A DNA stretch of 64,000 bases from NCBI RefSeq assembly GCF_014349155.1, contig NZ_JACSIT010000138.1, positions 23,926 through 87,925 of the forward strand. The letters are read 5' to 3'. Within the stretch, counting starts at the first letter, position 1, and each line of letters starts with the position of its first letter. The DNA is from Neolewinella lacunae. GTDB taxonomy: Bacteria; Bacteroidota; Bacteroidia; Chitinophagales; Saprospiraceae. The notes under the pieces were generated by a model. It made no database searches. It was given only the letters and a program-made list of their open reading frames with translations, and was not told where the DNA came from. Of this stretch, positions 5,290-58,462 are shown one piece after another. A program made the translations under genes and the position numbers.

Positions 5290-5305
5290 GCACCTGCGGC
5301 CGCGC
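5290..5305 (+). repeat. Dispersed 16-bp motif, GCACCTGCGGCCGCGC
   Basis: Exact copy, variable base G. It is intergenic, 72 bp before the chosen start of the gene at 5377. Confidence 0.9.
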
Positions 5306-5376
5306 CCGAAACGAAAAAGCCGGGCGAAACGGCGTGCCCCGACCATCTTTCTGCCCCAACAAAACGTTCATGGGAA

Positions 5377-7761: not shown

Positions 7762-7782
7762 GGGTAGTTCTGTAGTTCTGTA

Positions 7783-7870
7783 GTGGACAATACCTCGCTA
7801 CCGAACTAAATACCCTTGCGATCTAACCCTCTGAAAGCAGCGAATAGCTACATTGCATACCCCCAACCTG
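7783..7870. repeat. ~90-bp convergent-gap repeat, copy A (partner 36450-36540)
   Basis: It starts GTGGACAATACC and ends ACCCCCAACCTG. It aligns along its whole length, with scattered substitutions and a few single-base gaps, to 36450-36540. Both copies fill the gap between a plus-strand gene ending at the left and a minus-strand gene ending at the right. The ends of the block coincide closely with the two flanking stop codons. Confidence 0.8.
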
Positions 7871-7873
7871 GAG

Positions 7874-8896
7874 TTAATTAAGTCCCGAAGACTTCCGAAT
7901 TTCCAGTCCCCCATCTTCGGCGCGGACCAGGAAATAGCCGTCCAATTCCGGGGTGTTCTCCACCAGTTCGAGGGCGGCTGCGGGGCCGAGGACCATGCAG
8001 GCGGTCGCGAAGGCGTCGGCCGTGGCGCAGTCGGGGGCCAAAATGCTGGCGCTGAGCAGGCGATTGCGTTCCACCAGGCCCGTTTTGGGGTTGATGGTGT
8101 GGCTAAAGGTTTCGCCGTCGACGGTGTAATAACTCAGGTAATTGCCGGAGGTGGCGATGGCGCGGCCGTTGCTCAGGGGGAGGGTGCCGGCTTGAGAGAC
8201 TTTGCTGCGGTCTTCGTCGGGCAGTCGGATGGCCACGTTCCAGGGCTTACCGTTTTTGGTGCCGCCGCCGCGCATCTCGCCACCGATGTCGATGAGGTGA
8301 TCGGGTCTTCCGGCGCTGGTGAGGAGTTGGGAGAGGAGATCGACGCCGAAGCCTTTGGCGCTGGCGTTGAGGTCGAGTTCCGTCCCCGGTTCTTTGTGGA
8401 GAAACTGTCCTTCGAGGCGGATGCGGTCCATGCCTACCAGTTGGCGCAGGCGGTCTACCTCGGCGGGGTCGAAGTTGGCGCTCTCCCGGGGTTTACCGGT
8501 GCCGAAGCCCCAGAATCTGACGAGGGGGGCAACGGTGGGGTCGTAGGCTCCGCCGGTGGCTTCGCTGGCGCGGCGGGCCAGTTCGAGGTTAGGGATAAAG
8601 TGGCGGGTGCCGGCCAGATCGATGCCCCTTTCGCTTTGGTTGAAGGCATTGAGTTTGCTGGTGGGCACCCAGGCGGAAAGTTCGGCGTTGTAGGCCGTCA
8701 GCAGGCTATCGATGCGGGCGCGGAGGCCGGGCAGGGAGTCGCCCAGGTAAGTCACGCGGTAGTAGGAACCCATCGCCTCGCCGGTCAGGAGGTGACTTTC
8801 CTGGGGGGTGGTGTCGGTGGGTTCGGCCTGCGTTGCGGGGGCGCGGTCGCAGGTGCAAAAGAAAAGGACGAGGAGCAGGGGAAGGTAGAAACGCAT
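7874..8896 (-). CDS. ApbE-family FAD:protein FMN transferase, lipoprotein
   Basis: A 340-residue protein. ApbE enzymes move FMN from FAD onto a Thr of exported flavoproteins such as NqrC or RnfG. The start at 8894-8896 gives a lipoprotein signal peptide (MRFYLPLLLVLFFC). Family features follow in order: GEAMGSYYRVTYLG, LNAFNQSERG, ATGGAYDPTVAPLVRFWGFG, LDLNASAKGFGVDLL, DIGGEMRGGG, SGNYLSYYTVDG, HTINPKTG and the metal-binding region CATADAFATACMVLG. The 16-bp dispersed motif encodes the CTCDRAP segment straight after the lipobox. No Nqr/Rnf genes are in the window, so its substrate is unknown. A TACCTTTG box lies 61 bp upstream. Confidence 0.93.
   Translation of the reverse strand: MRFYLPLLLVLFFCTCDRAPATQAEPTDTTPQESHLLTGEAMGSYYRVTYLGDSLPGLRARIDSLLTAYNAELSAWVPTSKLNAFNQSERGIDLAGTRHFIPNLELARRASEATGGAYDPTVAPLVRFWGFGTGKPRESANFDPAEVDRLRQLVGMDRIRLEGQFLHKEPGTELDLNASAKGFGVDLLSQLLTSAGRPDHLIDIGGEMRGGGTKNGKPWNVAIRLPDEDRSKVSQAGTLPLSNGRAIATSGNYLSYYTVDGETFSHTINPKTGLVERNRLLSASILAPDCATADAFATACMVLGPAAALELVENTPELDGYFLVRAEDGGLEIRKSSGLN
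8841..8856 (-). repeat. Dispersed 16-bp motif, GCACCTGCGACCGCGC
   Basis: Exact copy, variable base A, inside the apbE-like gene, where it encodes CTCDRA just after the signal peptide. Confidence 0.9.
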
Positions 8897-8957
8897 GGTC
8901 TTTTGGCTTTGGGAGGGAGATTGCCCGGGGAAAGGGAGCGGACGGGCTGCTTTGCGG

Positions 8958-8965
8958 CAAAGGTA
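8958..8965 (-). promoter_or_regulatory. Candidate -7 box for the apbE-like gene (TACCTTTG)
   Basis: A perfect TAnnTTTG box on the minus strand, ending 61 bp before the ATG at 8896. Confidence 0.5.
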
Positions 8966-9003
8966 GGGGCCGGCAGCCTCCCCTCGCTCGTCCAACTGGC
9001 CCG

Positions 9004-9019
9004 GCACCTGCGTCCGCGC
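9004..9019 (+). repeat. Dispersed 16-bp motif, GCACCTGCGTCCGCGC
   Basis: Exact copy, variable base T, in the divergent gap between the apbE-like gene and the hybrid two-component regulator. Confidence 0.9.
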
Positions 9020-9101
9020 CAAAAAAAAGCCTGAACTGCCGTATCTTCCCACTTCACCACCAATCTTCAGCTGCCGGGCCTTCCCGCGCGGTTTTGCGTT
9101 T

Positions 9102-13056: not shown

Positions 13057-13072
13057 GCGCGGCCGCAGGTGC
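13057..13072 (-). repeat. Dispersed 16-bp motif, GCACCTGCGGCCGCGC
   Basis: Exact copy, variable base G, one base after the HTCS stop codon. Confidence 0.9.
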
Positions 13073-13278: not shown

Positions 13279-16200
13279 ATGATTCACCAACGATTCAGGT
13301 TCCGCCTTCTGGCGCTGACCCTCCTCTTTATTGCATTTTCCCTTTCCGTCTATTCCCAGGCCGTTCGCATCAGTGTCATCGTGCCCAATCCGCCGCCGGC
13401 CTACTGGGATGCCTACCTGGAATTTAACGCCGACATCCGGGTGATCCTGACCAATGTATCGACCCAAACCCGGGAGGTAAAACTCATTCCCACCCTGACG
13501 TCTGACCGGGGCCTGGGGGCAAGGTTTTCGCCGGATTTTCAGCCCCTTTCGCCCATCGTGGTGCCGGGTGGAGGGACGGTCAACCTCACCTACCGCGATC
13601 TGCGGGCCATCTTTGGGACGCCGGCCCAGTCGGACGTCCAGCTCTCCGGCATCAGTTTTGATCGCCTTTTTGAATCGGAGACCATTCCGGAGGGCACCTA
13701 CACTTTGTGCGTGGAAGCCCGCGATTTCGTCACCAACGAGCCCCTGAGCAACAACTTCGGCTGTGATGTCTTCTTCGTGCAGCAGCACGAACCGCCGTTG
13801 ATCATTTACCCCGGCGACGGAGCGCAGGTGACGAGCACGCAACCCCAATTCATCAACTTCTTGTGGTCGACCACGGGCATTCCCGGGCGGGTCCGGTACC
13901 GCTTCGAGCTCTACGACCTGGACGACCTGGGTTTGAACAATCCCGCCGACGCCTACCTGCTGGCCGCTACCCGGCCCCTGTTTGAGACCGATGAGCTGGT
14001 GGCCAACACCCTGGCCTACGACCTGGGCTACCCCCCGCTCATTCCCGGCCGGCACTACGCCATTCAGGTGACGGCTTATGACCCGAACGAAGAACTTTTG
14101 TTTGCTCAAGGGGGCCAAAGCCAGGTCCATCAGTTCCAGTACGTCGCCCCCATCGTCTTCGGCGGAGGCAACGGCACGATCGTGATTGCTCCACCCAATG
14201 ACGGCAGTGGCGGTGGCGGCGGCGGGGTGGTTCCCGGCCCCGGCAACCTGAACAACCAGGGCAACCAGCAGGCCAATTACGTGTACAACTGTCCGCCCCT
14301 GCCCCCACCCACTACCACGCCCTACCCCAACACCATCGGCATTGGCCAGACCATTTCCGTTGGTGGTTTCCCGCTGGAGATCCTGAGTGGTGGAGGCTTT
14401 TCCCCCATTGCGGGGACGGGCCGGATCCTGGTACCCGCCTTTAATACCTACGTCAACGTTGAATTTACTGGCCTCGACGTCAATACCAACCTGGAGGCCT
14501 ACGGCAACGGCGATGTGGTACGGGCCGTGGCGGGCAGCAACCTCATCCCCAACTCCCTTTTCGAGGACCTTTCCAACGGAGCATTCAACCCCAACGACCT
14601 GGCCGAGAGCACCGCCGGGCAATTGCGGGATTACGTGGCCAATACCAACAACTGGCTCAACCCCCAAAACCCCGGAATTCACCCCGCTTTGAACCTTCCC
14701 GCCGGCGTTGCTGGTGCGGGCATGGACCTGATCCTGACGGGCATGGAATTCACCCCCGGCGGGGGCGTGATGGCTGCCTACGTACAGGTAGACCTGCCGG
14801 AGGCCCAGGGTGACCGCCGCCTGCTCTTCGTCGGCAAAGGCATCTGCCTGACCGAGGGCAACCTCGGCCAGGGGGGAGCCCTGGTGTTGGGTGGCGACCA
14901 AACCTTCGCCCTTTCCGACGGTCTGGACCTCACCTTCCTTGGCGGCGAGGACGGCACCAGCGTCGACTGGAGCGAAAACGGCGTCACCTCCCTGAACGTC
15001 AGCGGCCGGCTGACTTTCGACCAAACCCTCGTCAATACGAACGGGCAGGCCCTGACGGCATCCTTCACCGCTACGGTGGAAGACTACCAGGATTGGACGG
15101 CCACCGTCACCCTCAACCAAAACGAGTGGGCCATCCCCGGGCTGGAGGACTTTGCCCTGCAGCTGTTGCCGGGTACCATTGCCTACGACCACTCCGCCGT
15201 GGCCGCCCCTCCGGGCTTCGACCTGCCGGCCAGCCACCCCCTGGCGGGCAATGAACAGCTCTGGCAGGGCGTCTACATCCCTGGCCTCGAATTCAGCTTC
15301 CCCTCCGGGATTGACGCCGAAGTAAACATTCAGGACATCATCCTCGACCAGCAGGGCGTCTGGCTGGACGTAGACATTAATGGCAACATCCTTTCTTTCG
15401 GGGACAATGCCGACGTTGGCAACTGGCCCCTGGCCATTGACCACCTGGGGCTTGACGTGCGCGGCAGCTCTGTGGAAAGTGCCAGCTTCGGGGGGAGAAT
15501 CAAGCTGCCCATCAGCAGTACTGAACTGGCCTTCACCGCGCCGATTGGTGGCGGAGGGGACTTCAACTTCGCCGTGGAACTGGGGCAGGCCATCAACGTT
15601 GATATGTGGGTGGCGGAAATGTCGCTGGCGGGCAACTCCTCCGTCGGTGTTTCCAAGCAAGGCAATTCCTACCTCCCGCAGGCCGTCCTCCACGGCCAGC
15701 TGAGCATTGGCTGGACGAAGACCGACAACCAGGCCAACTCGGCGGTGGGCGACTTCGAGCTGCCGGGCATCGAATTCCAGGACCTGACCATCACCGGCGG
15801 CGCGGGACAACCCCAGCTCAGCGGCGAATTTGGCTTAGACCTGGAAGACGTCTTCCAGGGCGGCTTGGCGGCCTTCCCGCTGCAACTCAAGGGTGTCGAC
15901 CTCAACCTCAACGGCAGCGAAATCGGCTTGCAACTCGACCTCGGGCTCAAACTCACCGAGATGGCCAATGGCTTCGAAGGCAGCACCGCATTCACCATCA
16001 TTGGCGACTGGGACGGCGGCCAAAAACGTTTTACCTACGACCGCACCGAACTCAACCAGATTTCCATTGACGCCGATATGGGCGTTATTGACATCGAAGG
16101 CTCCATCGTCTTTTACAACGGCGACCCTACCTACGGGGATGGCTTCGACGGGGCGGTGGACATTGAGGTCATCCCCCTCGACGTGGGTCTGGAAATGCGG

Positions 16201-20041: not shown

Positions 20042-22138
20042 ATGAAAAATCTGTTCACTGCTTGGCGGGGCCTGGTCCTGACCCTGCTCCTCCTTACCTG
20101 CACGGCACCTGCGACCGCGCAAACAGAAAACGCGGCCGACACGCTGCCCCCACCCCCGGGGCTGCGGCTGCTGGCCCGCCCCTACGGCGACTCGATCACC
20201 CTGCGCTGGGCCCCGACCGATTTTACCGTGTGGCGCGAAATGCGCGCCAACGGCGTGGTGCTGGAACGCCGCATCGCCGGGGCCGACGCCTGGCAATCGG
20301 TGACGACCGACCGCCTGATTGCCTACACCCTGGATGATTTTAACAATTTTACGAACACGGATAACGTCCACGTCGTGGCGGTAGCCGAGGCGCTCCACGG
20401 CGACGCCGAATACCCGGCCACGCCCCCGGCCGGACCGATGGGCGAGGTGCGGCTGAAGCTCGACGAGCAAGACCAACGCTTCTTCCTCGCCGCCGTCAAC
20501 GCCGACCTCTCCGCACAGGCCGCCACGGCCCTGGGGTGGCGCTGGACCGACCGCGGACTCCGCCCCGGCATCCCCTACGAATACCGCGTGCGTACCGTGC
20601 CCGGCAAAAACCAGGTGGGCAGCCGCTATACCTCCGAGCCCCTGCGGGTGCGCAGTTCCGATAACTTCGCCTTCGGCCCCGTCAGTGGCCTGAGCATCCG
20701 CGAGGGCGACCAAAAAGTCACCCTGGAATGGCCCGTTAACCCCAACCGCAAACGCTACGTGGCCTACCACGTGGAGGTGAGCGACGATGGCCGCAACTTC
20801 CGCCGCACCCAGGAGTTCCCCCTCTTCAAAACCCTGCCCCAGGACGGCGAGACCGACTTTAAGCACGACATCAAACTGGACGAAAATTACGTTCGCCGCC
20901 ACTACCGCCTCGTGGGCATCAACTCCTTCGGCGAGCTGGCCGAGCCTTCCATGGCTGCGGTGGGCCAGGGCATTGACCTGACGCCGCCGCCCAGCCTCAA
21001 CTCCCTCAAGGCCACCGATAACGGCAGCGGCGGCTTTCGCCTCACCTGGGAATTCCCCGAAGCAACGCCCCCGGACGTGCGCGGCTACGTGGTGGTGCGC
21101 AGCTGGGATTACAAAGGTCCCTTCTCCCCCGTCAACGACCGCGTTTTACCGCCCCTGGCCACCGAATTTACCGACCCCGAACCGACGCCCCACCGCGCCA
21201 ACTACTACGCGGTATACACCTACGACACGGCCGGCAACTACGCCATGAGCACCCCGGCCATCGCCCTCTGGCACGACGAAGAACCACCGGCCAAACCCAC
21301 GGGCCTGACCGGAAAAATCGACACCCTGGGCAACGTCTTCCTCGTGTGGGAGCCCGGAGAGGAACCCGACCTGCACGGCTACCGCGTGTACATGAGCCAC
21401 GCCAAGAAACGGGAATTTCTGCAGGTAACCTCCGATATCCTGCACCAGAATTACTACTTCGACTCCACGCGCCTGCGCGTGCTCAACGAAAAGATTTACT
21501 ACCAGGTGGTGGCCCTCGACAACAACTTCAATCCTTCGGCCTACTCCGATATTCTGGAGCTGGAACGGCCCGACGTGATGCCGCCTTCGGCTCCGGTGAT
21601 CACCGATTTTGCGGCCCGGGGCAGCAGCGTGACTTTGCGGTGGCGGCCGGGTAGCAGCCCCGATGTGGTCCAGCAGGAAATCTGGCGCAGTGGCCCCGAC
21701 GCTGCCCCCCGCCCCATCCGCGCCCTGGGCGGCAGCGATACGCTTTTTGTGGACACCAGCACGGTGGCGCGCACGCCCTACGTGTACTTCATCCGGGTGT
21801 CCGACGAGGCCAGGCTCTTCGCCGACTCCCGCAGCGTGACCATCGTTTCGGGCACCGGTACGGCGCTGGAGGGCGTCAGTGCGTGGGCGCGGACGCAGGT
21901 GCCGGGAACGGATGAGGAAGCGATGACCTGGCAGGCCCTGGGCCGGGGCATCGGCGGCTTCCAGCTGTACCGCCAGTCCCCCGGCGAAGCCCTGCGTCCC
22001 TACCGCCAGCTCCCGGCCGAACTCCGCAGCTGGTCCATCCCCGCCCAGGAGAATGACGCCAGCTTCGCCATCCAAATCATTTACCAAGACGGAGGCCGCT
22101 CGGCGCTGAGCTCCCTGGCTGGCCCCACCAAAAGATAG
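20042..22138 (+). CDS. Secreted protein with fibronectin type III-like domains
   Basis: A 698-residue protein. The signal peptide ends near CTAPATAQ (residue ~27), the last part of which is encoded by a copy of the 16-bp dispersed motif. At least four FN3-like modules follow, marked by openings such as PPPPGLRLLARPYGDSITLRW (start ~36), PVSGLSIREGDQKVTLEW, PPAKPTGLTGKIDTLGNVF and PPSAPVITDFAARGSSVTL, each followed by a Tyr-rich second half (YRVYMSHAKK, YYQVVALDNN). It lies 112 bp after the giant protein and 6 bp before the β-barrel gene, so the three are probably co-transcribed and act together at the cell surface (inference). A second motif copy encodes ARTQVPG near residue 617. Confidence 0.88.
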   Translation: MKNLFTAWRGLVLTLLLLTCTAPATAQTENAADTLPPPPGLRLLARPYGDSITLRWAPTDFTVWREMRANGVVLERRIAGADAWQSVTTDRLIAYTLDDFNNFTNTDNVHVVAVAEALHGDAEYPATPPAGPMGEVRLKLDEQDQRFFLAAVNADLSAQAATALGWRWTDRGLRPGIPYEYRVRTVPGKNQVGSRYTSEPLRVRSSDNFAFGPVSGLSIREGDQKVTLEWPVNPNRKRYVAYHVEVSDDGRNFRRTQEFPLFKTLPQDGETDFKHDIKLDENYVRRHYRLVGINSFGELAEPSMAAVGQGIDLTPPPSLNSLKATDNGSGGFRLTWEFPEATPPDVRGYVVVRSWDYKGPFSPVNDRVLPPLATEFTDPEPTPHRANYYAVYTYDTAGNYAMSTPAIALWHDEEPPAKPTGLTGKIDTLGNVFLVWEPGEEPDLHGYRVYMSHAKKREFLQVTSDILHQNYYFDSTRLRVLNEKIYYQVVALDNNFNPSAYSDILELERPDVMPPSAPVITDFAARGSSVTLRWRPGSSPDVVQQEIWRSGPDAAPRPIRALGGSDTLFVDTSTVARTPYVYFIRVSDEARLFADSRSVTIVSGTGTALEGVSAWARTQVPGTDEEAMTWQALGRGIGGFQLYRQSPGEALRPYRQLPAELRSWSIPAQENDASFAIQIIYQDGGRSALSSLAGPTKR
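20105..20120 (+). repeat. Dispersed 16-bp motif, GCACCTGCGACCGCGC
   Basis: Exact copy, variable base A. In the FN3-like gene it encodes APATA at the signal-peptide end. Confidence 0.9.
21887..21902 (-). repeat. Dispersed 16-bp motif, GCACCTGCGTCCGCGC
   Basis: Exact copy, variable base T, inside the FN3-like gene. The coding strand reads through it as ARTQVP, the same reading as the copy at 32348. Confidence 0.9.
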
Positions 22139-23884: not shown

Positions 23885-23903
23885 TCCCATAAATCCATCC
23901 AAC

Positions 23904-24854
23904 ATGCGTACCCTCAATTTTCTCCTTTTCCTGCTTTGCGGGTCAATGCTCTACGCCCAGGGAGTTGTCGTGAACATCACCAGTGCGGGCATTGGCGTTC
24001 CGCCAGACGGAGATTGCCGGAGCGATATTGCGGAGCCCGACTGCGGGAATCTGGACGGGGTCCAGGACATCACCGTGGCCCCCGGCGCAGAAGTTGCCCT
24101 GTTCATCCAGTGGCGGAATGATGGCAGCGCAACCATCACCGAAGTTCGGGCTACTGACCAGCAGGGAAATCCGGTGTTTCCGCCGGTCAGCAACACCTTG
24201 CTTCCAGGCGGCTCCGACCTGGCCACCGTTTTTTTCAACGCTCCGGTCGTACCGGGCAACTATACCACTCTGCTCACCCTTACGGCCACGGACAGTAACG
24301 AACGCGACGACACCGACCAGTTCCGGTACTTCATCACCGTCGACCAGTCCCTGCCCGTAGTGTTTACTGACTTTACCGCCCGCGCCACGGAAAAAGACGG
24401 GGTGGTGTTGCAGTGGTTCACCCAAAACGAAGAAAACAACGACCGCTTTGAGGTGGAAAGGAGCCTTGATGGCCGGAGCTTCGTGCAGTTGGGCGCGGTC
24501 GCAGGTGCCGGGGAAAGCCAAACGGAGCAGGGCTATTCCTTCCGTGATCGTTTCCCGCTGCCCGGGGAGAACTTCTACCGGCTACGGCAGGTCGATGTGG
24601 ACGGGCGGAGTGCTTACAGCAGCGTAGTGGGGGTAAACCTTGCGGCCGGACTCGCCCTCTTCCCCAACCCCGCCCAAGACGAGTTACAACTGCCTGGCTT
24701 CGCCGGGGGAGCCGTAGAAATATTCGATGCCCTGGGCCGCCTCATCTTGCGCCAGGAATTGGCGGCGGGAACCCCGTTGGCAGTGCAACACCTCCGGCCA
24801 GGCCGCTACCTGCTGCGGGCCGGGCGGGAGTCCAGGTGGTGGATAAAGCGGTAA
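23904..24854 (+). CDS. T9SS-exported protein with C-terminal sorting domain
   Basis: A 316-residue protein. The start at 23904 gives a clean signal peptide (MRTLNFLLFLLCGSMLYAQ) and a 19-bp gap to the barrel gene; a longer start overlaps that gene. Residues ~20-150 form a β-rich domain with CARDB-like text (EVALFIQWRNDGSATITEV, GSDLATVFFNAPVVPGNY). Then comes the typical FTARATEKDGVVLQWFTQNE and ENFYRLRQVDVDGRSAYSSV module, then a type-A sorting domain (LALFPNPAQDELQLP, VEIFDALGRLI, GRYLLRAG). It is expected to cross the outer membrane by T9SS and be attached to the surface. It is the last gene of the operon. Confidence 0.92.
   Translation: MRTLNFLLFLLCGSMLYAQGVVVNITSAGIGVPPDGDCRSDIAEPDCGNLDGVQDITVAPGAEVALFIQWRNDGSATITEVRATDQQGNPVFPPVSNTLLPGGSDLATVFFNAPVVPGNYTTLLTLTATDSNERDDTDQFRYFITVDQSLPVVFTDFTARATEKDGVVLQWFTQNEENNDRFEVERSLDGRSFVQLGAVAGAGESQTEQGYSFRDRFPLPGENFYRLRQVDVDGRSAYSSVVGVNLAAGLALFPNPAQDELQLPGFAGGAVEIFDALGRLILRQELAAGTPLAVQHLRPGRYLLRAGRESRWWIKR
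24493..24508 (-). repeat. Dispersed 16-bp motif, GCACCTGCGACCGCGC
   Basis: Exact copy, variable base A, inside the T9SS cargo gene, where the coding strand reads GAVAGA in a loop between domain halves. Confidence 0.9.
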
Positions 24855-27554: not shown

Positions 27555-27570
27555 GCGCGGCCGCAGGTGC
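27555..27570 (-). repeat. Dispersed 16-bp motif, GCACCTGCGGCCGCGC
   Basis: Exact intergenic copy, variable base G, 63 bp past the tsaD stop. Confidence 0.9.
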
Positions 27571-27603
27571 TACCGTCCGGACAAGGAGCAGGGAACAGCC
27601 TAA

Positions 27604-27638
27604 TGAACTATGAACTATGAACTATGAACTATGAACTA
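27604..27638. repeat. 7-bp tandem repeat TGAACTA x5
   Basis: Five perfect units. The same word, read as TAGTTCA, is repeated seven times at 50579-50627, and single units occur near 50648-50695 and 52893-52915. Confidence 0.95.
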
Positions 27639-27804
27639 TGAACCAGAGAATCCCCACCGTCGTCTAACAATCCTTGCTCTTCATCGAATTTCCCCTGCAC
27701 CTGCGCTCCGGCGCCCTAACTTAGAGAAGTGTAGCGACGTTAATATGAAAAGCTTCGCAGGAACCTAGCGTCCCTACCCTTTTTCCCCTCAGCCCCCAAC
27801 CGCC

Positions 27805-30379: not shown

Positions 30380-30526
30380 CGGGCTAATTAGGGGCTTCTG
30401 CTGCGGTGGATTATCGCCCCCTCCCTCCGGCATATCCCGATTTTTAGTCCGGCCACCGCCAAAAGCCTTCACCGCGGCTGTGTAATGGGGCATTTGCCCG
30501 CATCTTCCCTATCTAAACACTCCAGT

Positions 30527-33500
30527 ATGCAGCAATGGCTACTCCCTATTCTCCTGTTGTTTTCGGCCATTGCAGTGGGCCAATCTTTTGATTTCCCAGC
30601 AACGACCACCCGGATTTACCCCATTCCGGCCAGTACGGTTGGTGGCCTGCTCAGCGGCCAAATCCTGGCCGAGAATCTTCCCGATCCGGGCGAACCCTAT
30701 CCGGCAAATACTTTGCACGTTGACCTGCCTCCCGGACACTACCTGGAGGTTCGGCTGTCCGCAGAAAATGTGGCGTACGAATACTTTAACACCTACCGCT
30801 ACACCTTCAGCGCGGAAGAACACCGGGGTAAATTCCACCTCCGGGTCCACGATGCGACAGGCTCCCCCCGGAGCGATGCAGAAGTGTTGGCCGATGGGCA
30901 CCCCGTCCGCTACGCCAAAAAACACGGTGCCTACCGCCGTCGCGACTGGAAGATTGACGAGGTGCGTATCGTTGTTGACCAAGACACCTTGTTTTACCTG
31001 GTCGAAGAAGGTTTTAAAAAGAGTCGCTTTCGCCACGATCTTTCCCACGTCACGCGCAACATCCCGGCCTACGTCATACTTACCCCTTACCGGATTACCC
31101 GCAACAGCTACCGCTACCTGAAAGGAGGCATTGCCCACGGCAACTGGAGTATGTACAATTACCCCTTCCGGCGCACCATTCAACGGACGATTAACCCGCC
31201 CCGGCCCGTAGCGGGGTACGTCACTACCAACCAGCCCAAATACCGCCCCACAGACACCCTACGCATCAGCGCCTACCTGACCAAGCCCAGCGGCAGGCCC
31301 CTGGTAGCAGACTCGATTGACCTGAGCATCTTCCTTCACCGACCTTATCAGCGGGTGCTGGAGCGCAAAATTGGTCGCACCACGCGCGGCAGATACGAAT
31401 TGACGATGCCTCTTCCTGCGGCCTGGGAGATGGACCGTAAATACAACATTGAATTCAGTCTGCCCGGCATTATGCGGCGCGAAGTGTCCCCGGACATCAG
31501 CTTCCGGCTGGAGGATTATGAGCTGGCAGAATACGAACTCGACGTCACGGCCAGTACCGATGCCCGGCTGCCGGGGACGGCGTGGCTGGACCTGGCGACC
31601 AAAGACAGCAACGGCCAGCCCCTACCCGATGGGCAGTTGACGCTGACGGTTTTGCTCGACCGGATCGCAGCGCTGGCCGACACAGTGGGCCTGACCCTGC
31701 CCGACACCTTATACACTAGGGTGTGTAATCTGATACAGAATGCCCTCACGGTAACTGTGCCGTTGGAAAAACTCATAACTACGTTTAAAACCAGTAGTTA
31801 CGTTTTTACAAGGGAGCCAAAAAACGGCGAACAGATTTCCCGTCAGATTACACACCCTACCTTATACACCTACCGGGAAGCGACCGATAACCGCGTGAAA
31901 CGTCGCATTGTCCTGCCCGACAGTCTTTTTCCCGCCGGCTATTCACTGGAGGTGAAAGTGAAGACCCAGCTCAGTGGTCCGTCCGGCGAATATGTGGAGA
32001 AGACTTCGCCGCTGGTGGTGGACCGGCGTTTCCCGCAGGTCCCTCGCCTGGAGTTGGACGGGCCCAGCCTTCATCTTTTCCTGGCACCTGCGGCCGCGCC
32101 CGCGCCGGCCACCCTCCTGACCATCAATGCCCAGGGAGATACAGTGGTCACGGCCATCACGCTCCCCCACCGGCTTAAGCTCGATCATCAGCAGCGGCAG
32201 TACACGCTCCAGTACCAAGAGCAGTCGGTGCAGCAGGTCCTGCGAAAGCTGCGCCCAACCGACGAAAAGCTGGTGCGCTGGGCGCAAGACACGCTTTTCA
32301 TTCAATTCACCAACCCGCACCAGCAGGAGGTGTTTTGGGAATTGCGGGCGCGGACGCAGGTGCTGGGCGAGGGTGACGGAGCAAAGATGGACTACGTACA
32401 AGCGGGCTTCGCGCCGGGCACCGAACTTCAACTGCGCTACCGTTACCTGGCGGGCGGAACCTGGGTTTTTGGCGAGGAAACCTTGGTTGCTCCAGATCCG
32501 ACCCTCCTGAGCCCCGATCCCCAACAACTGTCCATCGCCCTGGAGCATCCCGAAAAAGTGCGGCCTGGCCAGACCGTCCGCGTAGCCCTCACGGCCACCG
32601 ATCAACGCGGCCGCCCAGCTTCTGGAGTACGGCTGACCGCCGCCACTTACAACGCCCGTTTTGATGGTTTGCCTTCTTCCATGCCCACCTACACCACCCG
32701 GCAACGGCCCGAACGTCAGCGCCAGTCTTACCAAATCAAGGATATTCATCTAAAGGGAAACCGGGTACCACCCTACTGGGCGATTACCCGGACCGGCCTG
32801 GACACCTCCTTAGCCTACCAGTTGCGCTACCCCACCGCTGAATTCTCCCTGTTGCGGAGTTTGGATACCATTGTGCCTGCGGGTAGTCCGCAAGCCCATT
32901 TCGCCCCCTTCATTCTAAAAGACCACCGGCCAATTCCCCTCAGCCTGGTGTACGCCGACGATCGGCTGGTCTATTTTCACCACCCTAATATTACTACGCC
33001 CTACAGCATTCCGGTAGACAGCGGCTGGCACCACATCGTGCTCCGCACCCAACACCACCGCTACGAAAAAGACTTGTACTTCCCGGCCCGGCAGCAATCC
33101 ATCGTCAGCTTCGCCTCCGAGCAGTGGCTGGCGGCGGGCTGGCAACGGACAGAAATGAAAAAGCCTACCCAAGAGGAAGTCAATAGCGTTCACAACCGGG
33201 TCTTTGCCCTGACGGGGATGGATGCACCGGGCGATTTTCATTTCCGGACGGGCGGAGGGACGATGATTCAATCGGGGCGTGCGTCGCGCGGAGGCTATTG
33301 GGCACCCCTGGGCCTGGCCACGGCAAATAACAGGATAGACTTCTGGATGCCGAACGGCGATAGTGTTCAATTGACCTACGAGCCCCAAGCGCTGTACCAA
33401 ATAAAGACGGAGCGGGATCGCCTTTACCCTTTAGCGCCGGAGTTGATCTTATCCACTTTAAGAAAGCCGGGAGAAGCCCCTACCAGCCCGGGGATACCCC

Positions 33501-36364
33501 GGTACGCGTACCGCCGCCCCGAACCAGCGGTAATGGTAAAAAAAATTTTCAGCGCAAGCGAAGTTCCCCACCGTTTTCCGGAGGAAACTTCCGGGCGTTT
33601 ACAAGTCTTCGGCCTACCCAAAGAGATTTCGCGGGTGATCATTGCCGAGGTTAAACAAGACCGTTATTACCAGCTCAACCTCAAGCAGCCGAACCGCCTC
33701 ACACCGGGTTGGTACGATATACTTTATCATTTTCCCAATGATTCCGTTCGCCACCAGCGGATCGACTTACCGCCGGATAGCCTCTTGCTGCTGGTGTACC
33801 GGGAAGGACAGACCCAATTTTATAGTTACTTCTCGGAGAAGGAGGGTTACTCGGAGGCGAGGCCTAAATACGTAGCGCCGGTGGTCCATTATCCGGATTT
33901 TATTTTCACTGGCAGCGTGGTTAGTGGTCGGGTCGTGGACCAGGACGGCGAACCCTTAGCTTGGGCTACGGTGCTGTTGGAAGAAATGAATACGGGAGTG
34001 GTTACGGACGTGGACGGGCATTTTGTAATCAAAGTACCGAGTACTCCTTATACCCTTCGGTTCTTATACACTGGCTTTGTGCAACAGCAATTGGTAATGT
34101 CTTCTCCATCCCTCCAGGGCCAGTATTTGGAGGTCATTATGGAGGAAGGTGTTAACAACCTTGATGCAGTAGTCGTAAGCGCATTCAGTGTCCCATCGAT
34201 TGAGCAAGACCACACCACGGTAACCAGTTTAGCAGCTAGGGTTGCAGGAGTAGAGATAGCGGATATCAACCTCCGTAGTTCTCGCATCAACGCCAAAGAC
34301 TTATTCGTTGATGGGCTACGGGTTTCGAGCGACGAGGTACCGGACTCCGCCTCATCCCAAACGGAGGATCCGGCATTAACTGGCGCTCTGCTTTCTGTGG
34401 GTAATGTACGCAGTAATTTTGCGGATTACGCCGCCTTTGTGCCGGATTTACGGACGGATGCGCGGGGACGGGCGGAGTTTGACATCCACTTCCCGGATGA
34501 TATAACGGCTTGGAATACCTTGGCGGTGGGCCAAGACCGCCGCCGCCGGGTGGGACTTGCCCAGGCCCAAACGATGGCCTTCCTGCCCTTGCAGGCCCAG
34601 CTTTACCTGCCCCGCTTTCTGGTGGAAGGAGATGAGAGCGAGGCCTTGGCATTGGCCATTAATCGGGAGGAAGCCGAGAAACGCGTCCGGTTCAGTTTCC
34701 GGGGGGATGGCCAGGCGGTGCAGCAGCGGGATTCGCTTTTGGGGCGGTCCTTATCCTTTAGTTACCCCATCCTGGCTGCGGCGGGGCTGGATAGTATGCA
34801 CTACCAGTTTGACCTTCAGTCGCTGGCCAGCGATGGAGAAGGCGATGGAGAAACGCGAGCGGTACCGGTCTATCCTAGGGGGACGGAAATGGTCAACGGC
34901 GCGCTCTTGTTGTTCAACGATCAGGAGATGATCTTGCCGGATAGCTTCATCGACCCTGCACGAGGGCCGGTGACTTTGCGGCTGCCCGGCAACCGTTTGG
35001 CGCAGCTACTGGCGGAGGTGGATCACCTGATCGAATACCCCTACGAATGCGTGGAACAAACGGCCAGCCGCCTCATTGGGCTCCTCGCCCTGGAACGGAT
35101 CGCGAAAGCCGGGGGCAAGGTAGCCGGGCCAGACCCGAGAATAAACAGAATGATCCGTCGGCTGGAAAAACTGCGCCGGGATGACGGGGGCTTTGGATGG
35201 TGGGGTGGTTCCGCTACTGCTTCGCCCTGGATCAGCAACCACGTTTATACCGCCCTTGCTGCGGCCAATGCCCAGGGCTATGCCGTTGCTGACCAGACCG
35301 GTACGCGTCGTTATTTGTTGAGTGAGGCGGCCCAGTTGCCCGTGCGGGATCAGCTGCAGATTGCCCTCACCCTGGCTGAAAACGGCTTCCCTCCCACTGC
35401 TGCGGAGATGCAGCGCCTGGATACCTTTTCCCGGCCCAATGACTACACCCTCCTGGCCATTACCCGCTTGCAGCAATTGTGGGGAGACACGGTAGACATC
35501 CAGCGTCTTTTGGACAGTTCCCGCCAGCACGCCGCTTTGGGCCGTTACTGGGGAGAGCGTCGTTTCCAGTTTTACCGCCAGCCCTTAAACGATCGCTTGG
35601 CCTGCGGGCTAATGGCCAGGCGCATTCTCTCCGCTGCGGGGCGCAAGGCAGAGGCGGACGAAACCGTCAATTATCTCCTGGGACAAACGGCTACGGGCGC
35701 GCAACGGGGCAGTCAGCCATTGCTGGGGGCAAACACCTTGGAATCTGCCCGGCTCGTGGCCGACCTGCTGCCTTACTTACTGGCGGAAGACGAGGTGCTG
35801 GCTCCGCCCACCGTACGGATCACCAGTAAACAGGGGATGGTCGAAGCAAAGGACTTCCCTTTCCAGCTCACCCTCGCCCCGGAGGATGTAGCCGGGTTGA
35901 AGCTGCAACGCACGGGCTCCGGCCCTATGCCCCTAGCGCTTTACCAGCGTTGGTTTGAAACGACGCCGGAGGCCTCACAACGGGGTTTTCAACTCACTGC
36001 TCGTTTGACGGACCATCGCACCCGCGTCCGCGCCCAATTGACGAAAGGGAAAACGGCTTATTTGGAAGTAAGCCTGACCAGCCAGGCCGACGCCGATTAC
36101 GTGCTGCTGGAAATTCCGATTCCTGCGGGGTGTAGCTACCACGACCGGGAGGAACCCAAGGGCCCCTTCGCCGTCCACCGGGAGTACCGTCGTGACCGGG
36201 TAGCGATTTTTTGTGAACGCTTGCCGGCGGGTACCCACACCTACCGGGTAGCATTGGCACCGCGCTTTTCGGGATCTTATACCATCAATCCCCCCCGCGC
36301 CGAAATGCAGTACCTCCCCGTAGTGAATGGCAATGGGGCGCTGCGCGAAGTTTTTGTGGAATAG
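30527..36364 (+). CDS. α2-macroglobulin family protein with SusC-like N-terminal module
   Basis: A 1945-residue exported protein; start at 30527 gives the signal peptide MQQWLLPILLLFSAIAVGQ. MG-type β-sandwich domains come first (GYVTTNQPKYRPTDTLRISAYL is the MG2 mark, ~230). A carboxypeptidase-regulatory-like domain starts at ~1129 (SGRVVDQDGEPLAWATVLLE) and runs into a short plug-like piece (VVVSAF to FVDGLRV, ~1268). The A2M domain follows (DITAWNTLAVGQD), with the thioester motif CVEQTASR, Cys ~1508, and the α/α toroid (GFGWWGG). Bacterial A2Ms trap proteases. Residues ~398-448 come from an inserted MITE-like element, in frame. Two copies of the 16-bp motif lie at 32084 and 32348. No pbpC gene is adjacent. 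Confidence 0.94.
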   Translation: MQQWLLPILLLFSAIAVGQSFDFPATTTRIYPIPASTVGGLLSGQILAENLPDPGEPYPANTLHVDLPPGHYLEVRLSAENVAYEYFNTYRYTFSAEEHRGKFHLRVHDATGSPRSDAEVLADGHPVRYAKKHGAYRRRDWKIDEVRIVVDQDTLFYLVEEGFKKSRFRHDLSHVTRNIPAYVILTPYRITRNSYRYLKGGIAHGNWSMYNYPFRRTIQRTINPPRPVAGYVTTNQPKYRPTDTLRISAYLTKPSGRPLVADSIDLSIFLHRPYQRVLERKIGRTTRGRYELTMPLPAAWEMDRKYNIEFSLPGIMRREVSPDISFRLEDYELAEYELDVTASTDARLPGTAWLDLATKDSNGQPLPDGQLTLTVLLDRIAALADTVGLTLPDTLYTRVCNLIQNALTVTVPLEKLITTFKTSSYVFTREPKNGEQISRQITHPTLYTYREATDNRVKRRIVLPDSLFPAGYSLEVKVKTQLSGPSGEYVEKTSPLVVDRRFPQVPRLELDGPSLHLFLAPAAAPAPATLLTINAQGDTVVTAITLPHRLKLDHQQRQYTLQYQEQSVQQVLRKLRPTDEKLVRWAQDTLFIQFTNPHQQEVFWELRARTQVLGEGDGAKMDYVQAGFAPGTELQLRYRYLAGGTWVFGEETLVAPDPTLLSPDPQQLSIALEHPEKVRPGQTVRVALTATDQRGRPASGVRLTAATYNARFDGLPSSMPTYTTRQRPERQRQSYQIKDIHLKGNRVPPYWAITRTGLDTSLAYQLRYPTAEFSLLRSLDTIVPAGSPQAHFAPFILKDHRPIPLSLVYADDRLVYFHHPNITTPYSIPVDSGWHHIVLRTQHHRYEKDLYFPARQQSIVSFASEQWLAAGWQRTEMKKPTQEEVNSVHNRVFALTGMDAPGDFHFRTGGGTMIQSGRASRGGYWAPLGLATANNRIDFWMPNGDSVQLTYEPQALYQIKTERDRLYPLAPELILSTLRKPGEAPTSPGIPRYAYRRPEPAVMVKKIFSASEVPHRFPEETSGRLQVFGLPKEISRVIIAEVKQDRYYQLNLKQPNRLTPGWYDILYHFPNDSVRHQRIDLPPDSLLLLVYREGQTQFYSYFSEKEGYSEARPKYVAPVVHYPDFIFTGSVVSGRVVDQDGEPLAWATVLLEEMNTGVVTDVDGHFVIKVPSTPYTLRFLYTGFVQQQLVMSSPSLQGQYLEVIMEEGVNNLDAVVVSAFSVPSIEQDHTTVTSLAARVAGVEIADINLRSSRINAKDLFVDGLRVSSDEVPDSASSQTEDPALTGALLSVGNVRSNFADYAAFVPDLRTDARGRAEFDIHFPDDITAWNTLAVGQDRRRRVGLAQAQTMAFLPLQAQLYLPRFLVEGDESEALALAINREEAEKRVRFSFRGDGQAVQQRDSLLGRSLSFSYPILAAAGLDSMHYQFDLQSLASDGEGDGETRAVPVYPRGTEMVNGALLLFNDQEMILPDSFIDPARGPVTLRLPGNRLAQLLAEVDHLIEYPYECVEQTASRLIGLLALERIAKAGGKVAGPDPRINRMIRRLEKLRRDDGGFGWWGGSATASPWISNHVYTALAAANAQGYAVADQTGTRRYLLSEAAQLPVRDQLQIALTLAENGFPPTAAEMQRLDTFSRPNDYTLLAITRLQQLWGDTVDIQRLLDSSRQHAALGRYWGERRFQFYRQPLNDRLACGLMARRILSAAGRKAEADETVNYLLGQTATGAQRGSQPLLGANTLESARLVADLLPYLLAEDEVLAPPTVRITSKQGMVEAKDFPFQLTLAPEDVAGLKLQRTGSGPMPLALYQRWFETTPEASQRGFQLTARLTDHRTRVRAQLTKGKTAYLEVSLTSQADADYVLLEIPIPAGCSYHDREEPKGPFAVHREYRRDRVAIFCERLPAGTHTYRVALAPRFSGSYTINPPRAEMQYLPVVNGNGALREVFVE
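31717..31859. mobile_element. MITE-like element, 143 bp, inserted in frame in the A2M gene
   Basis: Perfect 17-bp terminal inverted repeats (TAGGGTGTGTAATCTGA at 31717-31733; its complement at 31843-31859) enclose an A/T-rich core with a second inverted pair (TAACTAC/GTAGTTA). CCTTATACAC lies directly on both sides (31707-31716, 31860-31869), or 11 bp counting the shared A. Element plus duplication is 153 bp = 51 codons with no stop, so TLYT is repeated at both edges and the host frame is kept. Removing it would restore DTLYTYREATDN. The ends resemble those of 1393-1663. Confidence 0.85.
32084..32099 (+). repeat. Dispersed 16-bp motif, GCACCTGCGGCCGCGC
   Basis: Exact copy, variable base G, in the A2M gene, encoding APAAAP in a loop. 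Confidence 0.9.
32348..32363 (-). repeat. Dispersed 16-bp motif, GCACCTGCGTCCGCGC
   Basis: Exact copy, variable base T, in the A2M gene. The coding strand reads ARTQVL. Confidence 0.9.
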
Positions 36365-45567: not shown

Positions 45568-45583
45568 GCGCGGCCGCAGGTGC
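45568..45583 (-). repeat. Dispersed 16-bp motif, GCACCTGCGGCCGCGC
   Basis: Exact intergenic copy, variable base G; inverted partner at 45678. Confidence 0.9.
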
Positions 45584-45677: not shown

Positions 45678-45693
45678 GCACCTGCGACCGCGC
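45678..45693 (+). repeat. Dispersed 16-bp motif, GCACCTGCGACCGCGC
   Basis: Exact intergenic copy, variable base A, just past the stop codon of the sigma-54 activator; inverted partner at 45568. Confidence 0.9.
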
Positions 45694-52401: not shown

Positions 52402-52404
52402 GCA

Positions 52405-52842: not shown

Positions 52843-52925
52843 AGTAAAGGAATAAAGGAGTAAAGGAGTAAAAGGGAGCCGTTCGCTACTAATCTATGAA
52901 CTACTGAACTATGAACCAGATCAGG

Positions 52926-52941
52926 GCGCGGCCGCAGGTGC
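52926..52941 (-). repeat. Dispersed 16-bp motif, GCACCTGCGGCCGCGC
   Basis: Exact intergenic copy, variable base G, 10 bp past a TGAACTA unit, echoing the association at 27555-27638. Confidence 0.9.
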
Positions 52942-53028
52942 AAAGTTAGGGACTAATGAGCGGGGCATGCCCACGGTGGGGACGCAGGTTTTGCAACCAC
53001 TGCTTTTGCCTGCTGCGCAGACTTTTTT

Positions 53029-53327: not shown

Positions 53328-53357
53328 ACCTTAGCCCCTGTTCCACCACCCCCTCCC

Positions 53358-54833: not shown

Positions 54834-55047
54834 TGAGCTTTACGGGGACTGGGGGAGTCTTATCTCAATGTACTACACTCTGCTATTGACTTTTTGCCGG
54901 AGAACACCTACCTTTGCGTGAGGAAGAGTTAAAAACCCTAGCAAGGTGGGACGGTTTACGATCATCTGTAAGCTATCCTAAACGTGCTGTGTGTTCGTCG
55001 CCCCTAGGTTGCTTCCTTTTCCTAATTGATGGGGTGATTTAGGTAAG

Positions 55048-55074
55048 TTTCCGGGCAGCTTTGCGGGAGTGATG
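55048..55074 (+). repeat. 27-bp near-copy of the DUF5691 gene's 3' end
   Basis: It matches 54809-54835 at 25 of 27 bases, including the stop codon TGA and GGCTTTGCGGGAG-type core, 239 bp downstream. Confidence 0.8.
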
Positions 55075-55131
55075 GGGTTCGTTGACTCACCCTGCTCTCC
55101 CCCGTTGGGGGTTGGGGGGCGTCCTTACCCT

Positions 55132-55147
55132 GCACCTGCGACCGCGC
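55132..55147 (+). repeat. Dispersed 16-bp motif, GCACCTGCGACCGCGC
   Basis: Exact intergenic copy, variable base A, upstream of trhO. Confidence 0.9.
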
Positions 55148-55222
55148 CCAAGTACGCCTCCTGCGCCTGATAGTACCCAAACCCTGGCACCGAAAATGCC
55201 TTCAGAGCTCCCTCGTTTGCCG

Positions 55223-55230
55223 TATCTTTG
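55223..55230 (+). promoter_or_regulatory. Candidate -7 box for trhO (TATCTTTG)
   Basis: A perfect TAnnTTTG box, 40 bp before the ATG at 55271. Confidence 0.6.
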
Positions 55231-55270
55231 CGGGAAATTTCCACTTATCCTTACTTACGTCGTCCGTCTT

Positions 55271-56326: not shown

Positions 56327-56467
56327 AAGGGGGAAGGGAGTGACGTGTCTCCCATTGCTGGGCCAAAGACATCTCCAAAGCGAAATCCGGCTGCGGCATG
56401 AGCCGGGAAAAGCGTACCCACGCAGAAAAAGCCCTTTGCCGGTGTACGCTGGTTGCGTGGATTGTTC

Positions 56468-56475
56468 TATCTTTC
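56468..56475 (+). promoter_or_regulatory. Candidate -7 box for the subtilisin gene (TATCTTTC)
   Basis: TAnnTTTG with a changed last base, ending 7 bp before the ATG at 56483. Confidence 0.45.
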
Positions 56476-56482
56476 CCGTCGT

Positions 56483-58462
56483 ATGAGCCAAATCAAGATC
56501 CCCTCCGAGAACGGTAACCTTTTGCTGACCAAATCGACCAAGCTGGTCGGGATAAAAAAGCACGTAGAAGGCGCGGAGCTGGACGCCGTAGAAAGCAACG
56601 TGATGCCCAACCTGGGGGGCTTTGAAGTGGTGACGCTCAACCCCGCCGAAGACGTTGATGAAGCCTTGGATCAGGTGCGGGCCCGCGAAGATGTGGCCAT
56701 CGGTACCCACGTGTACTTCGCGGAAGGCGACAACCGCCCGGTCATTGCCACGGGCATCATCTACTGTGAGATGGCCGAAGGGGTGGGCAAGGAAGAGCGG
56801 CAGGTCGTTTTAGACGCTTTTGCGCTGGAAATCCTGGAAGACCGCGAAGACGGCACCATTGTCTGCAAGGTGACCGAGCGCAGTCCCAACCCGCTTAAGG
56901 TCGCCGCTGCCCTCACGAAACTCAGCATGGTACAAAAAGCCTACCCGGATTTGGACGTACCGTTGGACCAGTACTTCATGGAGCCGCGGGACGGGCTGCT
57001 GCCCAACGCCTGGCACCTGGAGAACACGGGGCGGGTGAGTGACGTGCCCAATTTCCCCCTCAAGCCCGGCGCGGATGCCAAGGTGCGGGCCGCCTGGCGC
57101 CGCATGGGCAACCTCGGTTCCAGCAACGTGGTGGTGGCCGTTATTGACAACGGCTTTGACTTAAACCACCCCGACCTGCGGGGCAAGGTGGTTGCCCCGC
57201 TCAACATTGCCAGCGGGGGCAATGACATCCCGGCCGGCAGTGGCCACGGCGACCACGCCACCCCTTGCGCCAGCGTAGCCGTGGCTTCCGCGAATGGCAG
57301 TGGCCTGGTGGGGGCCGCCCCGATGGCCCGTCTGATGCCTTTGCACGGACTGACCTATTCCAAATTCCTGACCGAGCGCATGTTTACCCACTGCATCCGC
57401 AACGGCGCCGACGTTATATCCTGCAGCTGGGGGACGATCGACCCGCGCTACCGACCGGGCTCGGAACACGAACGCGCCATCCGGCAGGCCCTCACCTCGG
57501 GCCGCAACGGGAAGGGCTGTGTGGTCGTCTTCGCCTCTGGCAACGAAGGGCGGGAATACATCAATTACTACGCTGCCATCCCCGGTGTCATTGGGGTGGG
57601 GGCCAGCACGAGTTCCGACACCCACGCCAGCTATTCCAACCGGGGCCAGGGGCTTAGTGTGGTAGCTCCTTCCGACGGGGGCTGGCCCATCATCGCCGCC
57701 CGCGCCAGCTGGGACCAGGGCAACCCCGGCATGCCCGTCAATAAGCGCTACTACGTCGATGGGGTCGACCGCGGCCCATTCTACAAGCATTTCGGGGGAA
57801 CCAGCTCAGCTACCCCGCTGGTGGCTGGCGTATGCGCCCTGATCCTTTCCGCCAACCCCGACCTGACCAGCGCGCAGGTGAAGTCCATCCTGGAAAGTAC
57901 GGCCGATAAGATTGGCAATGCCTGGGATTACGACAGCCGCGGCTATTCTACCAAATATGGCTTTGGGCGGGTGAATGCCGACCGCGCCGTAGCCGAAGCA
58001 CTTCGACTCCGCAGTATAGGCACCACGCAACCCACGCAGCCCACTGCGCCTACCCCACCGGTGGTTACCGTACCGACCCAGCCTACCCGGCCACCAGTCA
58101 ACACGACGCCCACGACACCCACTGCTCCTACAACCCCCACGGCACCTGCGACCGCGCCCAGTACCCCACCCGTCTCGGGCACGAACCTCTACCGCTTCAG
58201 CGTGCAAGGCATCGGCACGGCGGGCTTTGGCCTGCAGGTCTCCGTCAATAACGAATTTGCCCTGGTGCTGCGCGAAGTCGAGGAGCTGGAACGCAAATAC
58301 CGCCTGCCGGTGATCGTGCACATCAGTACGCTGAACGGGCGCACCGCCTTCCGCATCATGATGGGCCCCTTCGCTACGCAAGCCGAAGCCAATACCGCCA
58401 AAAGCAAGATGGTGTCTATGGGCGCGGCAGAGCCGTGGTTGCGGGCTTTAAGTGGAGTGTAG
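56483..58462 (+). CDS. Subtilisin-like (S8) serine protease without signal peptide
   Basis: A 659-residue protein. Start at 56483 (MSQIKIPSENGNLLLTKSTK), giving no signal peptide or membrane helix. Residues 1-175 form an α/β N-terminal domain, perhaps a propeptide. The S8 domain follows with Asp in VIDNGFDLNHPDL (~221), His in SGHGDHATPC (~254) and Ser in GTSSATPLVAG (~441); FASGNEG carries the oxyanion Asn. A Thr/Pro-rich linker (~515-570) includes APATAP from a 16-bp motif copy, then a SPOR-like end (YRFSVQGIGTAGFGLQV, FRIMMGPFATQAEANTAKSK). Where it acts is unclear, because a SPOR domain suggests peptidoglycan but no export signal is seen. Confidence 0.92.
   Translation: MSQIKIPSENGNLLLTKSTKLVGIKKHVEGAELDAVESNVMPNLGGFEVVTLNPAEDVDEALDQVRAREDVAIGTHVYFAEGDNRPVIATGIIYCEMAEGVGKEERQVVLDAFALEILEDREDGTIVCKVTERSPNPLKVAAALTKLSMVQKAYPDLDVPLDQYFMEPRDGLLPNAWHLENTGRVSDVPNFPLKPGADAKVRAAWRRMGNLGSSNVVVAVIDNGFDLNHPDLRGKVVAPLNIASGGNDIPAGSGHGDHATPCASVAVASANGSGLVGAAPMARLMPLHGLTYSKFLTERMFTHCIRNGADVISCSWGTIDPRYRPGSEHERAIRQALTSGRNGKGCVVVFASGNEGREYINYYAAIPGVIGVGASTSSDTHASYSNRGQGLSVVAPSDGGWPIIAARASWDQGNPGMPVNKRYYVDGVDRGPFYKHFGGTSSATPLVAGVCALILSANPDLTSAQVKSILESTADKIGNAWDYDSRGYSTKYGFGRVNADRAVAEALRLRSIGTTQPTQPTAPTPPVVTVPTQPTRPPVNTTPTTPTAPTTPTAPATAPSTPPVSGTNLYRFSVQGIGTAGFGLQVSVNNEFALVLREVEELERKYRLPVIVHISTLNGRTAFRIMMGPFATQAEANTAKSKMVSMGAAEPWLRALSGV
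58142..58157 (+). repeat. Dispersed 16-bp motif, GCACCTGCGACCGCGC
   Basis: Exact copy, variable base A, in the protease linker, encoding APATAP among Thr-Pro repeats. Confidence 0.9.

Follow-up and report, generated by a model that had tools for sequence, protein, structure and literature searches.

The 64-kb stretch of the Neolewinella lacunae draft genome analyzed here (the window; contig NZ_JACSIT010000138.1, positions 23,926 to 87,925) carries 15 exact copies of a 16-bp word, GCACCTGCGNCCGCGC, which consists of 15 fixed bases and one free position (N, position 10), and which may be a genus-specific tag for the recognition of self DNA. All 15 copies lie at the positions and on the strands given in an earlier note on this DNA, and 100 dinucleotide shuffles of the window yielded no copy. 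The whole draft assembly (G000; 5.82 Mb in 154 contigs) contains 1,050 exact copies, about one per 5.5 kb on average, with 516 on one strand and 534 on the other, whereas the reversed word, used as a control, is absent from it. The comparison with a Markov model proposed in the earlier note places this count far above expectation: in a 464-kb sample (the window and 400 kb of other G000 stretches, 8% of the genome), which is also the basis of the placement statistics given below, 90 exact copies were observed vs. 0.012 expected under a fifth-order model.

Eight of the window copies lie between genes and seven within genes, a split that had been reported previously and was reproduced with independent simple gene calls. 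The intergenic copies are located at 5290..5305 (plus strand, N = G), 9004..9019 (plus, N = T; by the simple gene call), 13057..13072 (minus, N = G; just past the stop codon of the hybrid two-component sensor gene 9102-13055), 27555..27570 (minus, N = G), 52926..52941 (minus, N = G), and 55132..55147 (plus, N = A; by the simple gene call), with a divergent pair at 45568..45583 (minus, N = G) and 45678..45693 (plus, N = A). The genic copy at 8841..8856 (minus, N = A) lies about 48 nt into an ApbE-family gene, on its sense strand and, as judged by eye, in signal-peptide-like codons. Gene 20042-22138 contains two copies, one at 20105..20120 (plus, N = A), in signal-peptide-like codons where both orthologs have variant copies, and one at 21887..21902 (minus, N = T), a site that is gapless in alignment, exact in G002 as well as in G000 and present as a near-copy in G015, despite only 45–63% protein identity. 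The remaining copies are at 24493..24508 (minus, N = A) inside gene 23868-24854, at 32084..32099 (plus, N = G) and 32348..32363 (minus, N = T) inside gene 30485-36364, and at 58142..58157 (plus, N = A) inside the subtilase/SPOR gene 56453-58462.

The word is sharp, because allowing up to two mismatches adds just two further matches to the 15 exact copies in the window. In the 464-kb sample, the numbers of matches with zero, one, and two mismatches are 90, 26, and 13 for the word, vs. 0, 1, and 12 for the reversed word. The loose part of the word lies in its middle, since 21 of the 26 one-mismatch copies deviate at core position 11 or 12. The claim that position 10 is never C holds in the window but fails in the larger sample, where 4 of the 90 exact copies have C. 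On the 3′ side, CC (or AA) adjoins the copies, with an A-rich stretch beyond it, and on the 5′ side they are preceded by a pyrimidine-rich, A-poor stretch (both in the 464-kb sample). A weaker 5′ element, GCTCC, starts 18–21 bases before the core in 23 of the 90 copies and 41–42 bases before it in 17, and occurs within 40 bases 3′ of the core in 5 of the 90; an example, belonging to copy 27555, is TGCTCC within 27571..27592 (minus), which starts 20 bases before the core. The outer flanks are mutually unrelated in the copies inspected and often consist of low-complexity DNA, tandem repeats, or C-run/G-run hairpins, and the flanks of 45 distinct copies are non-homologous except for short shared runs, as would suit an iterated word, which had been suggested before, rather than a multi-copy element with homologous flanks. 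Hairpins of this C-run/G-run kind, such as CTCCCCCCTTCGGGGGGTTGGGGGGGA, are located just 5′ of many copies (e.g., window 55090-55131), and CGGGGGG is present in 26 of the 90 upstream 45-base stretches. Tandem heptamer-like repeats (TAGTTCA...) occupy spacers at about 27600-27631 and at 52860-52925 of the window, and also occur in other G000 stretches.

Among the genomes searched, the word is confined to one genus, which is probably Neolewinella to judge from named relatives. Of 59 relatives, 19 of the 20 congeners have GCACCTGCGNCCGCGC (2 to 683 copies), compared with one of the 39 others, in which a single copy was found; the two strands are roughly balanced in the relatives too. A broad pattern that covers the first two dialects described below, and that words unlike it would escape, was run on 147 genomes of the family outside the genus: none came near the 1,023 matches of G000, and the richest had 20, 15, and 10 (with 8, 5, and 3 for the respective controls). 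In a genome collection, at least 119 stretches match, and records of Neolewinella, Lewinella, and a few Saprospiraceae or Bacteroidia recur amid single matches from unrelated organisms; recurring carriers among the matches listed are Neolewinella persica, N. agarilytica, N. aurantiaca, and uncultured Lewinella. At least 120 stretches of viral contigs match, among the matches listed mostly with one match each.

Within the genus, the word has dialects, namely GCACCTGCGNCCGCGC (dialect A), TACCTGCGCTCCGNCGC, GCWCCTGCGNNCCCGCCC, and GCACCCGCGNCCGCGC. G001, the sole congener without GCACCTGCGNCCGCGC, has 372 copies of ACCTGCGCTCCGNCGC (dialect B), usually preceded by T and usually followed on the 3′ side by CC and A-rich DNA. 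The third dialect, GCWCCTGCGNNCCCGCCC (dialect C), has 353 copies in G011, 258 in G017, 250 in G005, 153 in G008, and 3 in G000, and CACCCGCG, in the same frame of the word, is enriched in G019 and G016 (26 vs. 8.5 and 32 vs. 10.7 expected in 100 kb, respectively). In a tree of 20 species based on rpoB (which omits G009, as do the counts at the two loci below), dialects broadly follow clades: B copies are most numerous in the sister species G001 and G006, and G004, G008, G011, and G017 form a cluster in which C predominates. The fit is imperfect in that G005 is mixed (683 A and 250 C copies) and several species are poor in every counted dialect. In G010, the three counted dialects are represented by 2, 0, and 0 copies, respectively, and part of its sampled stretch reads N; as a genus member that nearly lacks the counted dialects despite encoding ComEC, it offers a natural negative control. 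In G001, there is also a second, unrelated repeated word, GGAGCTGGAGCTC, the 12-mers of which have 37–40 copies in 342 kb (about 320–460 times the expectation), and other repeated words are seen in further species and genera.

Two of the three near-copies that the earlier note had listed in the window carry words of other species. Its match at 27698 is a copy of the second dialect, the one with 372 copies in G001 (ACCTGCGCTCCGGCGC, 27699..27714, plus), and that at 36018 (GCACCCGCGTCCGCGC, 36018..36033, plus) has one mismatch and contains the CACCCGCG core of G019 and G016. The match at 12620 has one mismatch and lies inside a conserved response-regulator stretch in which orthologs code for nearly the same residues, and is probably due to chance. 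A second-dialect copy that had been missed is located at 13814..13829 (minus) inside gene 13279-19929, where the site is gapless vs. two orthologs without it. The sensor gene 9102-13055 and gene 37201-40182 both encode two-component sensors with Reg_prop propellers, and 42 matches to the C-terminal part of the former are present in G000.

Across much of the genus, copies recur at shared loci. This was seen at rpoB, which had been fetched for the tree, and at gyrB, taken as a second locus, neither of which was chosen for the word; the "same place" here means a similar distance and direction. In the rpoB–rpoC spacer, at least one copy is present in 17 of 20 species and a divergent inverted pair in 16 of 20, and the reversed control gave 0; this count uses a pattern uniting the dialects, which was written after the spacers had been seen, and an earlier, looser pattern had placed copies near rpoB in 14 of 21 loci. 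The exceptions are G008, in which an exact third-dialect copy escapes the union pattern, G020, in which the copy is degenerate as judged by eye, and G010, which has none. The A-rich species mostly have A words in this spacer and G001 and G006 have B words, whereas G004, G011, and G017 have the C word on one arm and a variant on the other; the match with dialect is imperfect, a B word being present in G016. The arms of the inverted pair persist while its interior varies between species (3 to 116 bases, with unrelated sequences), which gives the impression of a rapidly changing spacer flanked by two fixed points.

Upstream of gyrB, the same pattern, unchanged, finds a copy in 10 of 19 species (G009 and G018 being left out) and its reversed control finds none in 38 stretches, whereas the 3′ side of gyrB has a copy in 3 of 19. 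Nine of these 10 species have it at positions 470–547 of a stretch of 701 bases, each species with a copy directed at gyrB, and some of the copies are variants rather than the exact dialect of the species. A looser pattern, written after the stretches had been seen, adds four species at the cost of six control matches in the 38 stretches. In many species, the copies precede a promoter-like box, TTTTTGTACTTTTG, by about 45–115 bases where both were found, and point at gyrB.

Placement within G000 was analyzed with a home-made, hexamer-based, uncurated gene caller. Of 112 relaxed copies in the 464-kb sample, 77 are intergenic, even though spacers make up 18% of the DNA, and 35 are genic; the resulting densities of 0.93 per kb between genes and 0.09 per kb in coding DNA differ about 10-fold, in line with the intergenic excess claimed for the window. 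Seven other species (samples of 90–336 kb each, searched with their own dialect patterns) likewise have fewer copies in genes, with density ratios of 3.0–13.5, and use both strands. Spacing in G000 is more even than chance, in that the coefficient of variation (CV) of gaps longer than 400 bp is 0.68 vs. 0.92 ± 0.08 in 500 simulations of random placement with the same genic share (P 0.002); this comparison with a null covers G000, and the CV in the other species sampled is 0.46–0.96. The longest word-free gap (20 kb; C22:125951-145999, GC content 0.53 vs. 0.58) carries a Schlafen group 3 helicase/S24 fusion and a large Ig/PKD-domain gene. This region may be a genomic island, with only six gaps longer than 9 kb being too few for a conclusion.

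Genic copies appear to arise by point mutation rather than by insertion, to judge from codon-aligned orthologs. At nine of 11 genic matches so aligned, the site contains no gap, although three of these (12620 and two relaxed matches) may be chance matches; the other two, at 20105 (18 nt, upstream) and 24493 (9 nt), have gaps without insertion of the core. The ortholog screen compared 300 G000 proteins with stretches from 12 further species; 44 matches were accepted, and five of the genes concerned carried sites. In C19 gene 71348, which has 81% identity to its G001 counterpart, the exact word occupies, without a gap, a site at which G001 has other codons. At C19 gene 82515, G001 has an exact copy of its own dialect 4 bases from the relaxed G000 copy, in another reading frame, and C12 gene 11202 has a signal-peptide copy common to G000 (relaxed) and G002 (exact). 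As judged by eye, three G000 genic copies lie in signal-peptide-like codons.

The 15 fixed bases, the use of both strands, the location in spacers and tolerated codons, the concerted dialects, and the recurrence at the same loci together argue for a trans-acting reader. We infer this reader, and further that it is an uptake receptor and that biased uptake drives the pattern: the word would be a "self" tag for natural transformation, similar to the DNA uptake sequence (DUS) and the uptake signal sequence (USS), and kept by a trans-acting receptor, a reading to which we assign a probability of about 0.5. The count, the strand symmetry, the sharpness of the word, the absence of an insertion signature in genes, the even spacing in G000, the opposite orientation of its close pairs, and ComEC in all 21 genomes speak for it as well. 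A genus-specific receptor in the cell envelope would prefer word-bearing DNA during natural transformation, and biased uptake with recombination would spread and keep copies where they are tolerated, i.e., in spacers, at gene edges, in signal-peptide codons, and in loose parts of proteins. When the specificity of the receptor shifts in a lineage, copies would drift in place to the new dialect. The fuller proposal, that Neolewinella has its own uptake self-code with at least four dialects and a receptor other than the type IV pilus, and hence represents a third independent origin of DUS, in a different phylum and with dialect shifts readable at shared places, is more tentative.

Regarding machinery, ComEC is encoded in all 21 genomes, which is a weak test in that 10 of 14 control genomes encode it as well. 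A search with PF00437 found no assembly ATPase of type IV pili or type II secretion in the 21 genomes (pilins themselves were not searched); its matches in 20 of the 21 are partial (24–84 of 370 positions), with 11 marginally at or over the cut-off, and the two that were checked are Clp-type ATPases. Since no pilus-type ATPase was found, an uptake receptor, if any, would differ from the Neisseria type, and the passage of DNA through the outer membrane, should uptake be the function, would have to use something other than a type IV pilus.

Several observations weigh against uptake as the function. The PF00437 result is one of them, and ComEC does not track the word, because it is also encoded in the word-poor G010. 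G000, the species of the window itself, has no copy upstream of gyrB; the promoter-like box beside the gyrB copies of other species is also explicable by a regulator, and the rpoB–rpoC pairs could serve the RNA of the operon. In the 464-kb sample of G000, the 12 pairs of copies within 250 bp are no more frequent than chance predicts (12.1 expected), but all 12 are oppositely oriented. Uptake alone does not predict the polarity of spacer copies in G000, which have their CCGCGCCC end towards the nearer gene in 56 of 75 cases (56:19). Finally, the word is longer and sparser than known DUS and USS.

The main rival is that the word is the site of a genus-specific chromosome-organizing or nucleoid protein that binds every few kb, in the manner of MatP, Noc, or ParB, and has co-evolved with its sites into dialects. 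The regular spacing, the use of both strands, the preference for spacers, and the lack of a link to gene orientation all suit such a protein, as does the PF00437 result, and dialects that recur at the same places fit any trans-acting binder. Copies also lie inside genes (35 of 112), however, and we know of no precedent for a chromosome-organizing protein with 15-base specificity at 1,050 places; this explanation would cover much of the same evidence but is considered unlikely, albeit one to be kept firmly in mind.

Transcription or RNA offers a second alternative, in which inverted pairs fold in mRNA or single copies regulate neighboring genes. The inverted pairs in the rpoB–rpoC spacer of 16 of 20 species and the gyrB copies that precede a promoter-like box and point at the gene are what it would predict, and so is the polarity of copies in G000, where the nine copies located within the first 90 nt of a gene all have sense orientation, in addition to the 56:19 bias in spacers. 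Elsewhere these signals are mixed: in the seven other species, 7 of 10 early-gene copies are on the sense strand, and the counts towards and away from the nearer gene are 13:5 in G001, 7:1 in G019, 7:4 in G005, 3:3 in G002, 3:1 in G016, 1:1 in G011, and 0:4 in G017. In G000, tandem, convergent, and divergent spacers have similar densities (0.87, 1.30, and 0.94 copies per kb), and copies in tandem spacers run along transcription in 17 cases and against it in 19, so that the element is not tied to one type of transcript end. In addition, 53 of the 75 copies in spacers have no partner in the same spacer and cannot form a stem, antisense orientation is seen in 14 of 33 genic copies, and ordinary hairpin/T-run terminators follow gyrB in several species, as judged by eye. 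The spacer classes and the orientations disfavor the view that the word generally acts as a terminator or promoter element, and a role in RNA or regulation at large is rather improbable, although single loci may be regulated by it.

It is still more improbable that the word is a mobile repeat spread by a transposase, such as a repetitive extragenic palindromic (REP) sequence, a REPIN, or the ends of miniature inverted-repeat transposable elements (MITEs). The copies are short, GC-rich, and mainly in spacers, some form inverted pairs with unrelated interiors, and G000 has two Y1_Tnp genes; moreover, the G000 spacer with the C22 33001/33099 pair is about 120 bp longer than that of G004, which lacks the pair, and may have gained it by insertion. 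In genes, however, the gapless sites and the two gaps that are not core insertions disfavor a mobile element, and across much of the genus the place persists while the word itself changes. A slim chance is left for a HIP1-like word kept via a methylation, repair, or restriction system: the absence of an insertion signature in an iterated word is compatible with it, but a word that is 16 bp long, non-palindromic, and 10-fold depleted in genes is unlike HIP1. A replication- or recombination-polar word of the type of Chi or the FtsK orienting polar sequences (KOPS), suggested by its abundance and lack of palindromy, is disfavored to the point of being hardly credible by the genome-wide strand balance in G000 and by the mixed strands along a 1.3-Mb contig of G019 (the first places listed, judged by eye and not set against the replication origin).

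Should the word prove to be an uptake tag, it would be a third case of such a code, in Bacteroidota, with dialects at the same loci that allow a direct test of how these codes arise and switch, and of whether they require type IV pili. If instead the reader is a chromosome protein, it would be no less surprising that it recognizes 15 bases at a thousand sites. On either reading, the word marks the genus and could help in spotting recently acquired DNA.

Among known repeats, REP/REPIN and small dispersed repeats have many short, GC-rich, intergenic copies, some of them in inverted pairs. The word shares these features, but differs from them in lacking an insertion signature in genes and in changing dialect in place. 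HIP1 of cyanobacteria is an 8-bp palindrome that is iterated genome-wide, lineage-limited, dense, and common in genes; the word is likewise iterated, genome-wide, and lineage-limited, yet is long, directional, non-palindromic, and gene-avoiding. The earlier note had likened it to iterated words of the HIP1 or uptake type, with a possible protein-binding site, and this class of explanation, though not a particular function, is supported by the count, the strand balance, the intergenic excess, the dialects, the recurrence, and the lack of an insertion signature; within it, the comparison supports the uptake type as a better fit than HIP1.

To our knowledge, DNA-uptake "self" tags have been reported so far from only two bacterial families. 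A search of a partial library found no literature on uptake sequences, competence, or repeats in the present group. In the Flavobacteriaceae, a preference of Riemerella columbina for DNA of its own kind has been reported, no word having been proven for it (PMC7965970). An account of Pasteurellaceae USS counts a 9-bp core 1,465 times in H. influenzae, gives a density of about one per 1 kb, and describes a core with a longer flanking motif and a genomic island with few copies (PMC7811141). The Neolewinella word resembles USS in its many copies, its core with a flanking element, and possibly an island poor in copies, and differs in that the flanking element is 5′ of the core at a variable distance and in its density of about one per 5.5 kb rather than about one per 1 kb. 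For the DUS of Neisseriaceae, a published study describes dialects that differ by a few bases along the phylogeny, permissive sites, and inverted pairs, as well as relatively few one-mismatch copies in DUS-rich genomes (PMC3630211). Unlike DUS, the present word belongs to another phylum, is unrelated in sequence, is 16 bp long, and occurs in genomes in which the PF00437 search found no pilus ATPase; like DUS, it combines many copies and few one-mismatch copies with dialects, permissive sites, and inverted pairs.

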